A DNA stretch of 64,000 nt from Anaeromyxobacter paludicola (GTDB taxonomy: Bacteria; Myxococcota; Myxococcia; Myxococcales; Anaeromyxobacteraceae): positions 1,240,001 to 1,304,000 of the forward strand of contig NZ_AP025592.1 in NCBI RefSeq assembly GCF_023169965.1, read 5' to 3'. This document shows, one piece after another, positions 18,753 through 24,351 of this stretch; within the stretch, counting starts at the first letter, position 1; each line of letters starts with the position of its first letter. Below the pieces are notes generated by a model, which saw nothing but the letters and a program-made list of their open reading frames with translations, searched no databases and was not told where the DNA came from. Position numbers and translations under genes: made by a program.

Positions 18753-21230
18753 TCAGGCGCTGCGCGCGGCCGCCTCGCGCCCGGCGAGGCGGGCCACCGC
18801 GTCCGCCAGCTCGGCGGGGCCGATGGGCTTCGCGAGGTAGAGCTGGTACCCGGCGCCGAGCGCCTCCTGCCGGTGCTCGGTCTGGGTGAAGGCGGTGAGC
18901 GCCGCCGCGGGGATGGCGCCGCCGCGCTCGGGCGGCAGGGCGCGCACGCGGCGGATGAGGCTGTAGCCGTCCTCGCCGGGCATGCCGATGTCGCTCACGA
19001 GCACGTCGGGCCGGTCCTGCGCTAGCAGCCGGAGCGCCCCCTCGACGTCGCGGGCGGCCGACACCACCGCGCCGGCCTGCTCGAGCAGCTGCCGCACCAC
19101 CTCGAGCGTGTCCGGGTCGTCGTCCACGATGAGGACCCGGAGCCCCCCGAGCGCCGCCGGGACCCCCGGCTCCGGCGCCGCCCGCAGCGCCGGGCGGGCC
19201 GCCTCGGCGCGCGGCCGCGGGCGGAGCTGCACGTTCGGGAGGCTCACCGTGAAGGTGGCCCCGAGCCCCTGCCCCGGGCTCTCGCCCTGCACCGTGCCCC
19301 CGTGCGCCTCGACCAGGTGCCGGACGATGGCGAGCCCGAGCCCCATGCCCCCGTGGACGCGGGTGGTGCTCGAGTCGGCCTGGCGGAACCGCTCGAAGAC
19401 GTGCGGCAGGAACTCCGCGTCGATCCCCTTGCCGGTGTCCTGGACCTCGACGAGGACGCGCCCGTCGGCGCCGCGCAGCCGCACCTCCACCCGCCCCCCG
19501 TCCGGCGTGAACTTCACCGCGTTGGTGAGCAGGTTCCAGAACACCTGCTGGAGCCGGCCGGCGTCGCCGGAGACCGCGCAGCCCTGCGCCGCGAAGACGG
19601 CAGTGATGAGGATGTCGCGCGCCGCCGCCGCCGGGCGGACGGTGTCGATGGCCGCCTCCAGGATGGGCACGATCTCGAGCGGGCGGACGTCGAGCCGCAG
19701 CTCGCCGCGGACGATGCGCGAGACGTCGAGCAGGTCGTCCACGATCTGCGCCTGGGTGGTCGCCCCGCGCTCGATGGCCTCCACCGCCCGGGCGGTGGAG
19801 GGGGCGTCCAGCTTCCCCAGCCGCAGGAGCCGGGCCCAGCCGAGCACCGAGTTGAGCGGGGTGCGCAGCTCGTGGGAGAGCGTGGCGATGAACTCGTCCT
19901 TGGCCCGGTTGGCCCGCTCGAGCTCGGAGCGCGCCGCCTTCTCGCGGGCGAGCACCGCCGCGCGGGCCTCCTCCACGCGCCGGCGCTCCGACATGTCGCG
20001 GAAGACCAGCACCACGCCGGCGGTGCGGCCGCGGCGGTCGCGGATGGGCGCGGCGGTCCCCTCGATCGGGATCTCCCCGGCGGCGCCGTCGATGGCGGCG
20101 CGCGGCGGGAGCTTCACCACCCCGTCCACGAGCGCCCGCTCCGCGGGGTGCGGCAGCCGCTCGCCCTCGGGGCCGTGCAGCCGGAAGACCTCCGCCAGCG
20201 GCCGGCCGGCGGCGCCCGCCTCGGAGCAGCCGGTGAGCCCCTCCGCCACGGCGTTCATGAGGGTGACCCGCCCGCGCATGTCGCAGGCGATCACCGCGTC
20301 GGCGATGCTGCCGATGGTGGTGCGGAACCACTCGCGCTGCTCGCGGAGGGTCTCCTCGACGTGGCCGCGATCGTCCTCCATCCGGAGCAGCGTGCTCGCG
20401 TTCCACCAGACCACCACGCCGCCGGCGACGATGCCGGAGACGACCATGAACGAGGCGCCGAGCAGCGTCTCGTGCCCGGAGCCGACGCCTGCCACGAGCA
20501 GGAGCCAGCCGAGCACGAGCGGCAGGAGCACCACCGCGAGGAGCAGCCGGCGCGCCACGAACCCGACCGGCGAGGCCGAGGAGACCACCCGCATGAAGCC
20601 CGACTCGGGCCGGCAGAGCAGCACCGCCGTGCAGAGGAGCGCGAACCCGATGCCCGAGTGGAGGGTGAGCGAGCCGGTCTCGCCGCGGACGAGGGGCGGC
20701 TCGACCCCGTACGTGTAGCCCACGATCGACTGGAGCGGGAGCAGGGCCGCCGTGAGCGCCAGCATCTGGGCCGGCCGGTGCCCGCGCCGGGTCTCCCAGT
20801 CGAGCAGGACCAGCGCGCAGCCGACGAGGAGCAGCGTGAGCGCGCTCGACGGGGCCATGCGCCCGGGGTGCACGTCCCCCACCGGATCCTGGAAGAGGAA
20901 CTGGTCGAGGTGGAGGTCGGCGACCGCGACGTACTCGGCGGTGGTGCCGAGCCCGAGCAGCGCCACCGCGAGGCCGAGCGCCATCCCCAGCCGCCGCGCC
21001 CCGCGCGACCGGGGCTCGGGCGCCAGGATCCAGACCGCGAGCCCGCCCAGGAGCATGCCCAGGGCGGCGTTGGCCTTCATGCTGGCGTGGCCGGGCGCGA
21101 GGGTCTTGAGCGCCTGGAGGTGGAACAGCCAGCCGCAGAGCACGAGGGCGCCGGCGAGCGCCACCGCGGCGCCGAGGGCGCGGCCGAAGTGCCGGAAGGA
21201 GACGCCGAAGCTCGCCTGGTCGCTGTCCAC
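18753..21230 (-). CDS. Membrane hybrid histidine kinase with PAS and C-terminal receiver
   Basis: 825 aa. Residues 15-285 contain about eight hydrophobic helices in the style of a multi-pass integral sensor. A PAS domain follows (300-415), then HisKA with H453 (LSHELRTP), an ATPase domain with NLLTNAVKF, QDTGKGID and GMGLGLAI, and a receiver near 695-810 with VDDDP and a phospho-acceptor in VSDIGMPGEDG. There is no output domain, so it likely phosphorylates or drains a separate regulator. No partner gene lies beside it. The stimulus cannot be read from sequence. Confidence 0.9.
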   Translation of the reverse strand: MDSDQASFGVSFRHFGRALGAAVALAGALVLCGWLFHLQALKTLAPGHASMKANAALGMLLGGLAVWILAPEPRSRGARRLGMALGLAVALLGLGTTAEYVAVADLHLDQFLFQDPVGDVHPGRMAPSSALTLLLVGCALVLLDWETRRGHRPAQMLALTAALLPLQSIVGYTYGVEPPLVRGETGSLTLHSGIGFALLCTAVLLCRPESGFMRVVSSASPVGFVARRLLLAVVLLPLVLGWLLLVAGVGSGHETLLGASFMVVSGIVAGGVVVWWNASTLLRMEDDRGHVEETLREQREWFRTTIGSIADAVIACDMRGRVTLMNAVAEGLTGCSEAGAAGRPLAEVFRLHGPEGERLPHPAERALVDGVVKLPPRAAIDGAAGEIPIEGTAAPIRDRRGRTAGVVLVFRDMSERRRVEEARAAVLAREKAARSELERANRAKDEFIATLSHELRTPLNSVLGWARLLRLGKLDAPSTARAVEAIERGATTQAQIVDDLLDVSRIVRGELRLDVRPLEIVPILEAAIDTVRPAAAARDILITAVFAAQGCAVSGDAGRLQQVFWNLLTNAVKFTPDGGRVEVRLRGADGRVLVEVQDTGKGIDAEFLPHVFERFRQADSSTTRVHGGMGLGLAIVRHLVEAHGGTVQGESPGQGLGATFTVSLPNVQLRPRPRAEAARPALRAAPEPGVPAALGGLRVLIVDDDPDTLEVVRQLLEQAGAVVSAARDVEGALRLLAQDRPDVLVSDIGMPGEDGYSLIRRVRALPPERGGAIPAAALTAFTQTEHRQEALGAGYQLYLAKPIGPAELADAVARLAGREAAARSA

Positions 21231-21274
21231 TGGCTCGAACCGGGGGGTGGCGGAAGTGTCGCCTCAACGGGCCG

Positions 21275-21331
21275 AAAAGGGAAGCGGCCGGCCCCTGCCG
21301 GGCAGGCCGGAGAGCGGACCGGGCCGGCCGC
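21275..21331 (-). terminator. Intrinsic terminator of the polA operon
   Basis: A perfect 11-base inverted repeat (arms 21284-21294 and 21321-21331) encloses a 26-base loop with its own small hairpin. On the minus strand it is followed by TTCCCTTTT. It lies 15 bases past the second (post-TGA) stop of the small gene after polA. Confidence 0.7.
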
Positions 21332-21346
21332 GGCGACGCCGCGGGC

Positions 21347-21604
21347 TCACCCCTCCCGGCCGAAGGTGACCGCCCCGAGGAGCGCGCCCATCCCCCCGGC
21401 GACCGCCGGGTTGCAGGCGATGCTTCAGGTCGAGCCGAGGGCCCGGGAGAGGAAGCTGTACCCGAGGCCGAGCGCGGCGCCGGCGGCCACGCCCTTGAGC
21501 ACGGCGGCGAGCCGCCGCGCCGCCGGAGCTGGCGCCGGGCGCGCGGGAGGGTTCCCACCCGCGGTGGGGGACGGAGGCGGCGCGGAGGGGTCCGGGAGAG
21601 CCAT
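21347..21604 (-). CDS. Candidate selenoprotein: DUF6132-like small membrane protein read through an in-frame TGA
   Basis: With normal termination the gene ends at the TGA at 21427-21425 and encodes 59 aa. In the same frame, 25 more codons follow before a second TGA at 21349-21347, giving 85 aa with position 60 encoded by TGA. Residues 33-52 (AAVLKGVAAGAALGLGYSFL) form a membrane helix. After the TGA come SIACNPAVAGGMGALLGAV, a second hydrophobic stretch. From memory of the DUF6132 family, the pattern is helix, G-x-C-P-I-T-S-N-P, helix; here it reads G-S-T-(TGA)-S-I-A-C-N-P, so the TGA falls on the conserved cysteine. A hairpin of bacterial SECIS type follows (21395-21410). The gene lies 50 bases after polA and before a terminator. 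The ATG at 21604 has no clear ribosome site, so the start is uncertain. A plain nonsense mutation is the alternative. Confidence 0.6.
21395..21410 (-). promoter_or_regulatory. Candidate bacterial SECIS hairpin
   Basis: On the minus strand CCCGGC-GGTC-GCCGGG forms a perfect 6-bp stem with a GGUC loop. The loop begins at nucleotide 24, counting the U of the TGA as 1. Known bacterial SECIS elements place a small hairpin with a G in the first loop positions about 16-37 bases after UGA; the E. coli fdhF element, as I recall it, has GGUC at about the same distance. Confidence 0.5.
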
Positions 21605-21654
21605 CGGAGGTGGGAGGCCGGAGCCGCGCGGAAGGGTTCGGCGGACCGGGAGGG

Positions 21655-24351
21655 TCAGTGGGCCTCGGCCCAGCTGTGGCCCGCGCCCACCTCGACCTCG
21701 AGCGGCACCGCCAGCTCGGCGGCCCCGCCCATCTCCTCGCGCAGGATCGCGGTCACCTCGGCCTGCTCCGCCTCCGGCGCCTCGACCACCAGCTCGTCGT
21801 GGACCTGCAGCAACAGGCGCGCCGAGAGCCCGCGCTCGCGCAGCACCCGGTCCACGCCCAGCATGGCGATCTTGATGACGTCCGCCGCGGTCCCCTGGAT
21901 CGGCGTGTTGACCGCCATCCGCTCCGCCGACTGGCGCAGCGCCGGGTTGCGCGCGGTGATCTCCGGGAGCGCCCGCTTGCGCCCGAAGAGGGTCCGCACC
22001 TCGCCGGTCCGCCGCGTCTCGGCGATGATCCCGTCGAGCCAGCGCTTCACCGCGGCGTAGCGGGCGAAGTAGCGGTCGATGATCCCCTGCGCCTCCGCCG
22101 GCGGGAGGTCCAGCCGCTGCGAGAGGCCGAAGGCGGAGAGCCCGTAGGCGATGCCGAAGTTGAGCACCTTCGCCACCCGGCGCTGATCCGCGGTGACGTC
22201 GCCGGGCGCCACGCCGAAGGTCTCGGCCGCGGTGCGGGCGTGCACGTCCTCGCCGGTGCGGAAGCTCTCCAGGAGCGCCGGGTCGGCGGCGTAGTGGGCC
22301 AGGATGCGCAGCTCGATCTGCGAGTAGTCGGCCGAGACCAGCAGGTGCCCGGGGGGCGCCACGAAGGCGGCCCGGATGCGGCGCGAGAGCTCGGTGCGGA
22401 CCGGGATGTTCTGGAGGTTCGGGTCCGAGGAGCTGAGCCGGCCGGTGGCGGCCCCGCCCTGGTGGTAGGTGGTGTGGATCCGCCCGTCGGCCTCGACCAG
22501 CTGCGGCAGGGCGTCCACGTAGGTGCCCTTGAGCTTGGCGAGCGAGCGGTGCTCGAGCACCAGCGCCGGGAGGCCGTGCTGCTCGGAGAGCTTCTCCAGC
22601 ACCTCCTGATCGGTGGAGGGGCCGGTCTTGAGCCGCTTCAGCACCGGGAGCTTCAGCTCCTCGAACAGCACCTGGGCGAGCTCGCGCGTCGAGGCGATGT
22701 TGAAGGCGTGGCCGGCCGCGGCGTGGATGCGGGCCTCGAGGTCGCGGATCGCCTTGCCGAACTCGGCGCTCATCGACTCCATGGCGCCGCGGTCCACCGC
22801 CACCCCGGCCTCCTCCATGGCGGCGAGGACCGGCACGAGCGGCCCCTCCACCCCTTCGTACAGGGCGGTGAGCCCCTCGTCGGAGAGCGCCTGCCGGAGC
22901 CGCGCGGCGAGATCCACCAGCGCCGCCGCGCACGGGACGGCGTGGGCCGCGACCCGGTCCACCGGGAGCTCGCCCGGGAGGGCCGCCCCGCGGCGCCCGC
23001 TCCCCGCCCCCTCGAGCGGCGGCAGCTCGCAGGAGAGCCGCTCCCGCGCCACGTCGGCGAGGGCGTGCTCGCGCCGGGTGGGCAGGAGCAGCCGGCTCGC
23101 GAGCTCGGTGTCGAAGGCGGCGGCCGCGGCGGGCGCGAGCCCGAGCCGGCGGAGGGCGTGGAGCTCCGGCTTGAGGTCGTGGGCGACGAGGCGCGGCCCG
23201 CCCGGCGCGAAGAGCGGCGCGAGCGCCTCGGCGGCCACCGCCGGCGCGAGCTGCGCCGGGGCGCCCAGGTAGCGGTGGCCGAGCGGCAGGTAGAAGCCGC
23301 GCCCCCCGCCGGCGAGGGCCAGCCCCGCCACCGGCGCCGCGCGGGGCGCCTCCCCGTCGCGCAGGGCGCGCAGGCCGATCTCCTTCGAGTCGAGGAGGTG
23401 GGCCACCGCGGCCTCGAGCGCGGGCCGATCGAGGAGCACCTCGACCGCCTCGTCGCGCCGGGTCGGCGGCGGCGCCGGGAGGTCCTTGAGGAGCCGCGAG
23501 AACTCGAGCTCGCTGAAGAGGGCGCGCACCTCGCCGTCGTCGGGGACGCGCCGGGCGAACGCCTCCGGCCCCTGCGGCACCTCCACGTCGCACTTGATCT
23601 CGACGAGCTTGCGGTTGAGCCGGATCCGATCGGCGCTGGCGACGATCTTCTCCTGGAGCTTCTTGCCGCCGCGGCTCACCGCCTGCGGGATCTCCTCCGG
23701 GCGGGCCAGCATCGCCTCGACGGTGCCGAAGTGGCGCACCAGCGCGGCGGCGGTGACCTCGCCGACCCCGGGGATGCCCGGGACGTCGTCGATCTTGTCG
23801 CCCAGGATCGCCATGTACTCGATCACCTGCGACGGGGTCACCCCGAGCTTCTTCTCCACCTCGGCCGGCCCGGTCCACCCGCCCCGCCCGCTCGCCTCGG
23901 CCATCGGGTCGTAGAGCGAGAGCCGCTCGTCCACCAGCTGCGCGAAGTCCTTGTCGCCGGTGACGACCACCACCTCGAAGCCCTGGGCGCGGGCGCGGCA
24001 GGCGAGCGTGCCGATGACGTCGTCGGCCTCGAAGTTCTCGAGCTCCACCGCCGGGACGGCGAGGGCCTTCGCCACCTCGCGCACCAGCGGGAACTGGCGC
24101 TGCAGGTCGTCGGGCGCCTCGGGCCGGCTCGCCTTGTAGCCCGGGTCGAGGTCGTGCCGGAAGCTCCTCCGGCCCTTGTCGAGCACCAGCGCCACGTGCG
24201 TCGGCGCGTGCTCCCGGAGCGCCTTCAGCAGCATGGTGGTGAAGCCGTAGACGGCGTGGGTGGGGACGCCCTTCGTCGTGGTGAGGGGCGGGAGCGCGTG
24301 GTAGGCGCGGAAGACGAAGCCGGAGCCGTCGATGAGCGTGAGCGTCGGCAC
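21655..24351 (-). CDS. polA: DNA polymerase I, proofreading residues lost
   Basis: 898 aa. The 5' nuclease domain (1-290) has LIDGSGFVFRAYHA, ENFEADDVIGTLA, VVTGDKDFAQLV and GDKIDDVPGIPGVG. The polymerase domain has motif A SADYSQIELRILAH, motif B QRRVAKVLNFGIAYG and motif C LLQVHDELVVE. In the middle 3'-5' exonuclease domain the usual D-x-E is replaced (GLRALRDG), the aspartate of the LKYD motif is E (LKPE), and the last catalytic aspartate is missing. It should therefore replicate and repair without proofreading, as in Thermus enzymes. It lies 12 bases after an unknown lipoprotein gene. Confidence 0.95.
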   Translation of the reverse strand: MPTLTLIDGSGFVFRAYHALPPLTTTKGVPTHAVYGFTTMLLKALREHAPTHVALVLDKGRRSFRHDLDPGYKASRPEAPDDLQRQFPLVREVAKALAVPAVELENFEADDVIGTLACRARAQGFEVVVVTGDKDFAQLVDERLSLYDPMAEASGRGGWTGPAEVEKKLGVTPSQVIEYMAILGDKIDDVPGIPGVGEVTAAALVRHFGTVEAMLARPEEIPQAVSRGGKKLQEKIVASADRIRLNRKLVEIKCDVEVPQGPEAFARRVPDDGEVRALFSELEFSRLLKDLPAPPPTRRDEAVEVLLDRPALEAAVAHLLDSKEIGLRALRDGEAPRAAPVAGLALAGGGRGFYLPLGHRYLGAPAQLAPAVAAEALAPLFAPGGPRLVAHDLKPELHALRRLGLAPAAAAAFDTELASRLLLPTRREHALADVARERLSCELPPLEGAGSGRRGAALPGELPVDRVAAHAVPCAAALVDLAARLRQALSDEGLTALYEGVEGPLVPVLAAMEEAGVAVDRGAMESMSAEFGKAIRDLEARIHAAAGHAFNIASTRELAQVLFEELKLPVLKRLKTGPSTDQEVLEKLSEQHGLPALVLEHRSLAKLKGTYVDALPQLVEADGRIHTTYHQGGAATGRLSSSDPNLQNIPVRTELSRRIRAAFVAPPGHLLVSADYSQIELRILAHYAADPALLESFRTGEDVHARTAAETFGVAPGDVTADQRRVAKVLNFGIAYGLSAFGLSQRLDLPPAEAQGIIDRYFARYAAVKRWLDGIIAETRRTGEVRTLFGRKRALPEITARNPALRQSAERMAVNTPIQGTAADVIKIAMLGVDRVLRERGLSARLLLQVHDELVVEAPEAEQAEVTAILREEMGGAAELAVPLEVEVGAGHSWAEAH

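Follow-up and report, generated by a model that had tools for sequence, protein, structure and literature searches.

Does the TGA that interrupts a short reading frame on the minus strand of the window (the whole stretch of 64,000 nucleotides of Anaeromyxobacter paludicola DNA that was analysed) end a 59-residue protein, or is it decoded as selenocysteine (Sec)? The frame, at 21347..21604 on the minus strand, comprises 85 codons and a stop and translates as M(1)...LGST-TGA(60)-SIACNPAVAGGMGALLGAVTFGREG-TGA: codons M1 to T59 are followed by one in-frame TGA at codon 60 (21425..21427), by 25 further codons that begin S-I-A-C-N-P-A-V-A-G, and by a second TGA (21347..21349). Its translation, 14 homologues with a TGA and signs of purifying selection after the TGA mark it as a candidate selenoprotein gene, and UGA60 is almost certainly decoded as Sec (rough probability 0.94). 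The second TGA is taken as the genuine stop; the three closest relatives are 74-82% identical to the window DNA ahead of it, and 35% identical beyond it. The ATG at 21604 is the probable, if unproven, start codon. No ribosome-binding site is evident for the gene, and the N-terminus of the encoded protein is ~20 residues longer than those of its relatives.

Homologues interrupted in the same manner are present in 15 genomes, including that of the window (G000). A search of 60 related genomes returned three clear matches (G001, G004 and G009), each with exactly one internal TGA, and profile searches of 195 genomes of the phylum added G025 and eight genera of family f11 (G060, G061 and G063-G068). 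Scanning the DNA of these 195 genomes for a pattern of TGA plus hairpin recovered the same 13 members and two more, G113 and G044, whose genes encode the same type of protein; the reversed pattern, which served as control, matched 0 times in the 195 genomes. All 15 genes have a TGA at the codon of the window gene, followed by x3-C-x-P-A-V-A, and across the four families concerned the triplet is never TAA or TAG. The partner cysteine codon (TGC, Cys64; 21413..21415, minus strand), which completes a U-x3-C motif, is invariant in 10 aligned Sec-type proteins and reads TGC or TGT in 15 of 15 members. The window's genome yielded a single match in the profile search, namely the window gene, and a further contig scan returned two contigs only, apparently those of G001 and G009 found already. 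The in-depth homologue search covered Myxococcota genomes.

The sequence after the TGA behaves as coding sequence. Over 22 codons, frame 0 has a higher pS than pN in 11 of 11 genome pairs (pS 0.41 and pN 0.09 for G000 and G001), and this excess is not consistent in the two shifted frames of the same stretch. The six pairs among G000, G001, G004 and G009 share 68-82% identity in the 66 nt that follow the TGA and 22-35% in the 60 nt that follow the second stop. Selection on the post-TGA part is thus purifying in frame, with similarity ending at the second stop. The original prediction, made from the letters of the window, had given the coordinates and translation of this frame correctly, and its view that the 25 codons look coding and exceed a chance continuation agrees with both the codon-level pattern and the 15 of 195 genomes that carry the TGA with its downstream signature. 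Relatives with a normal stop and unconserved downstream sequence, which it had named as grounds for refutation, did not turn up: every one has either the TGA with conserved sequence or a Cys. An intrinsic terminator just after the second stop, also predicted, was absent from a scan of positions 21150-21750.

That UGA60 is an ordinary stop, leaving a 59-residue one-helix product and a downstream similarity due to chance or relic, agrees with the standard genetic code and with the complete predicted helix encoded before the UGA, but is highly improbable given a protein sequence conserved behind the UGA in 14 other genomes with pS > pN, Cys homologues that read straight through and a covarying SECIS hairpin; the 14 homologues, the codon-level selection and the Cys homologues rule out a real stop or a chance continuation alike.

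Decoding of UGA as Sec in bacteria involves a SECIS hairpin, for which a published model calls for a G within the first two positions of the loop and a spacing of 16-37 nt after the UGA (PMC13188914). A hairpin of this type lies at 21395..21410 on the minus strand (CCCGGC-GGUC-GCCGGG), with a 6-bp stem formed by 21410-21405 and 21400-21395 and a GGUC apical loop at 21404-21401; its loop starts 20 nt and its stem 14 nt after the UGA, so that both loop and spacing fall within the model. Stem, loop and SECIS-like spacing had been recognized before, whereas the earlier figure of 24 bases past the TGA was slightly off. All 15 members have the hairpin in identical alignment columns, and in each of the 13 that were measured GGUC lies 20 nt from the UGA. 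Its third pair from the loop, the closing pair, joins two synonymous positions (the wobble positions of a Pro and an Ala codon) and is never broken in the 15 genes, being C-G in 8, G-C in 6 and U-A in 1. The covariation score of this pair was matched by 0 of 500 shuffles; the signal consists of one base pair in three states, and its independence is limited by shared ancestry. Given the codon usage of the window, P-A-V-A would show GCG-GTC together with a complementary wobble pair by chance with a probability of ~0.10 per gene, a figure that cannot be freely multiplied across the members because the genes are related. Folding energies are not distinctive relative to shuffles (z -1.2 for the window, +0.4 to +1.4 for family f11); since thermodynamic folding alone does not separate the element from shuffled sequences, the case for a SECIS rests on covariation and position. 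In the Cys homologues, no GGUC hairpin was found at the corresponding place.

The host possesses the machinery required for such decoding. Its genome encodes a tRNA-Sec (selC, 75 bits, anticodon TCA), SelB (295 bits), SelA (514 bits) and SelD (391 bits), the last with a TGA of its own; all four genes, whose absence would have spoken against the original prediction, are thus present. Four formate dehydrogenase alpha (fdhA) genes, at 511812-514856, 1772996-1775983, 4193857-4196928 and 4405929-4408970 of the host contig (G000:C1), likewise all have an in-frame TGA. The SECIS elements of host selD and fdhA resemble that of the window gene in their apical loops, which are GGUC in selD and three of the four fdhA genes and AGUC in the remaining one, 18-32 nt after the UGA. 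They differ in that their loops are taken to comprise five bases (GGUCC, GGUCU, AGUCU) and their stems 4-7 bp, whereas in the window family a stem of 6 bp (4 bp in f11) closes directly round the four bases GGUC. Most other Sec-type genomes have selB over the cut-off, and most of those checked have selD; selB over the cut-off was not found in G001, G009 and G066, nor selD in G060, these four being draft assemblies listed as 80, 92, 92 and 70% complete, respectively.

A second selenium-free reading holds that UGA60 undergoes low-level programmed readthrough by a near-cognate tRNA, for instance that for Trp. Programmed stop-codon readthrough would likewise conserve the sequence downstream. The residue in all homologues without UGA is Cys and not Trp, however, a GGUC-loop hairpin like those of the Sec genes of the host sits at the right distance, and the Sec machinery of the host is complete. 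The probability left to near-cognate readthrough is accordingly minute, and we reject it on account of the Cys in the homologues together with the SECIS. Sec is almost certainly inserted at UGA60 by the host SelA, SelB, SelC and SelD, directed by the GGUC-loop hairpin 20 nt downstream within the coding sequence.

The homologues with Cys in place of Sec are of two kinds. Counterparts occur in G070 (GSTCSFLCRPHVAG), in G034 (GGTCTVACDPATG) and as a second gene in G025 (ASCTVVCKPDVAA), a genome in which the Sec form is present as well. Other Myxococcota contain canonical DUF6132 proteins with the motif GxCPITSNP (PF19628, 38-40 bits). The original prediction had named this very motif and placed the TGA on its Cys; DUF6132 proteins in related genomes do have the motif, and its Cys aligns with the TGA. 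The Sec/Cys column is among three invariant columns in an alignment of 11 proteins, and a profile-profile alignment (hhalign) of the Sec group against eight DUF6132-type proteins gave a probability of 98.1% (E 1.3e-13, 62 columns). A tree of 25 short proteins was mostly unresolved.

The Sec-type proteins share with DUF6132 the two-helix hairpin layout and the aligned position of UGA and Cys, but differ in their cysteines. The eight aligned DUF6132 members have a C-x4-C pair (G-C-x-T-G-x-C), of which the Sec-type proteins lack the first Cys, 5 residues before the Sec position (G-C-x-T-G), and carry instead an extra Cys 4 residues after Sec (U-x3-C). The window protein does not match PF19628 at E 1, its relatives in G009 and G060 score 11 and 16.2 bits, below the curated cut-off of 23.2 bits, and searches of Pfam and NCBIfam with the window protein gave no match. 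The description "DUF6132-like" is therefore apt at the level of profile homology, whereas formal membership is not. Because the Pfam cut-off is not reached, the first DUF6132 Cys is absent and a new Cys stands four residues after Sec, we regard the Sec-type proteins as a sister group of DUF6132 rather than members of it.

Genomes with the Cys form differ in what they retain of Sec decoding. In G034, selA, selB, selD and tRNA-Sec were all looked for and not found. In G070 (G070:C19:92476-92569), tRNA-Sec is encoded and selD is present, with an in-frame TGA, but selA and selB were not found; Cys form and missing Sec machinery are thus not perfectly matched there, a pattern that possibly reflects an assembly gap or an ongoing loss of Sec decoding.

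The product of the locus would be an inner-membrane selenoprotein of 85 residues (about 60-85 in relatives). AlphaFold2, run with ten Sec-type sequences, predicts two helices (28-56 and 66-82), presumably both in the membrane, joined by the short turn G-S-T-U-S-I-A-C-N-P; residue 60 lies in the turn and Cys64 just ahead of the second long helix. The quality of the model is mediocre (pLDDT 74, pTM 0.36), and only the topology was therefore taken from it. The positive residues at either end would place the turn on the periplasmic side. Sec60 and Cys64 could then either join reversibly in a selenenylsulfide or attack a (per)sulfide, and the protein may act as a small membrane-anchored carrier for thiol-disulfide or sulfane-sulfur redox reactions, with the Cys-only DUF6132 relatives doing a similar job by means of their C-x4-C pair. 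We would give such a redox function about even odds. The more specific idea that a minimal membrane hairpin of two helices holds a catalytic selenol in its turn and relays electrons, or sulfane sulfur or selenium, across or at the inner membrane is possible but rather unlikely; if true, it would describe a redox or chalcogen-transfer device that dispenses with the thioredoxin fold and is invisible to annotation in Myxococcota.

Gene neighbourhoods bear on function mainly through the Cys relatives. In the window, the gene lies between an upstream gene for DNA polymerase I (polA; 21655..24351, minus strand), named by sequence resemblance and not by family search, and a downstream one for a membrane PAS histidine kinase with a receiver domain (18753..21230, minus strand; Pfam). 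The same arrangement between polA-like and histidine-kinase-like genes is seen in G001, where the end of the same polA protein precedes the selenoprotein gene, and in G009, where a polA-like ORF lies upstream; in both, a kinase-like ORF similar to that of the window follows. The neighbours differ in other Sec-type genomes (e.g., SprT-like and TonB-like genes), and no redox neighbourhood conserved across families of Sec-type genes was found, so that the reading of function rests on the distant Cys relatives. Among the proteins encoded next to Cys DUF6132 genes are thioredoxin-reductase-like flavoproteins, thioredoxin, OsmC, a metallo-beta-lactamase-fold protein, rhodanese, DUF302 and a flavoprotein interpreted as sulfide:quinone-reductase-like, a context indicative of redox chemistry on thiols or sulfane sulfur.

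A selenoprotein in which the Sec/Cys pair serves to bind a metal or chalcogen (Hg, Cu, sulfide or selenide) for transport or resistance, instead of taking part in thiol redox reactions, is the alternative that survives best. The catalogue of Sec families contains a mercuric-transport-like protein and a YeeE/YedE thiosulfate transporter (PMC13188914), the Cys homologue of G034 adjoins a cupredoxin-like protein and ORFs judged by eye to be RND-efflux-like, and on a Riemerella anatipestifer plasmid (NZ_CP081938.1, 76622-86774) a DUF6132 gene directly follows one for a heavy-metal-associated-domain protein. Most neighbours of the Cys DUF6132 genes examined, in contrast, are thiol or sulfur redox enzymes. 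Binding of this kind is a possible but rather unlikely role, and the redox carrier is modestly preferred to it. A TonB-dependent receptor gene is also found near the DUF6132 gene of the Riemerella plasmid.

In its decoding, the Sec-type group resembles known bacterial selenoproteins: an in-frame UGA, Cys homologues, a downstream SECIS within 16-37 nt and the Sec machinery of the host. A 2026 review catalogues 119 prokaryotic selenoprotein families (PMC13188914), among which there is neither DUF6132 nor a recognizably comparable two-helix protein; the membrane-transport selenoproteins listed there (YeeE/YedE, PF04143; mercuric transport, PF02411; SO_0444 efflux, NF033936) are families separate from the Sec-type group. 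NCBIfam release 20.0, which has models for many of the catalogued families, gave no significant match with the window protein or eight relatives. The literature searched contained no paper on the function of DUF6132 or on the Sec-type family, which annotation or further papers may know. The Sec-type group is thus a selenoprotein family absent from the current catalogue with a standard decoding mechanism. It adds very small membrane proteins to a catalogue in which most characterized members are thioredoxin-like in fold, and standard annotation is likely to truncate the gene, which at least 15 genomes carry, right at the active-site residue. The residue exchanged for Sec in evolution is very probably the reactive one in DUF6132, so that the pairing of Sec and Cys families provides a handle on DUF6132 function. 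Within family f1, to which the window's genome belongs, Sec-type genes and canonical Cys DUF6132-like genes appear to be mutually exclusive: in G000, G001, G004 and G009 the Sec type is the only one present, and the genera g2, g3 and g5 have only matches free of an internal stop.
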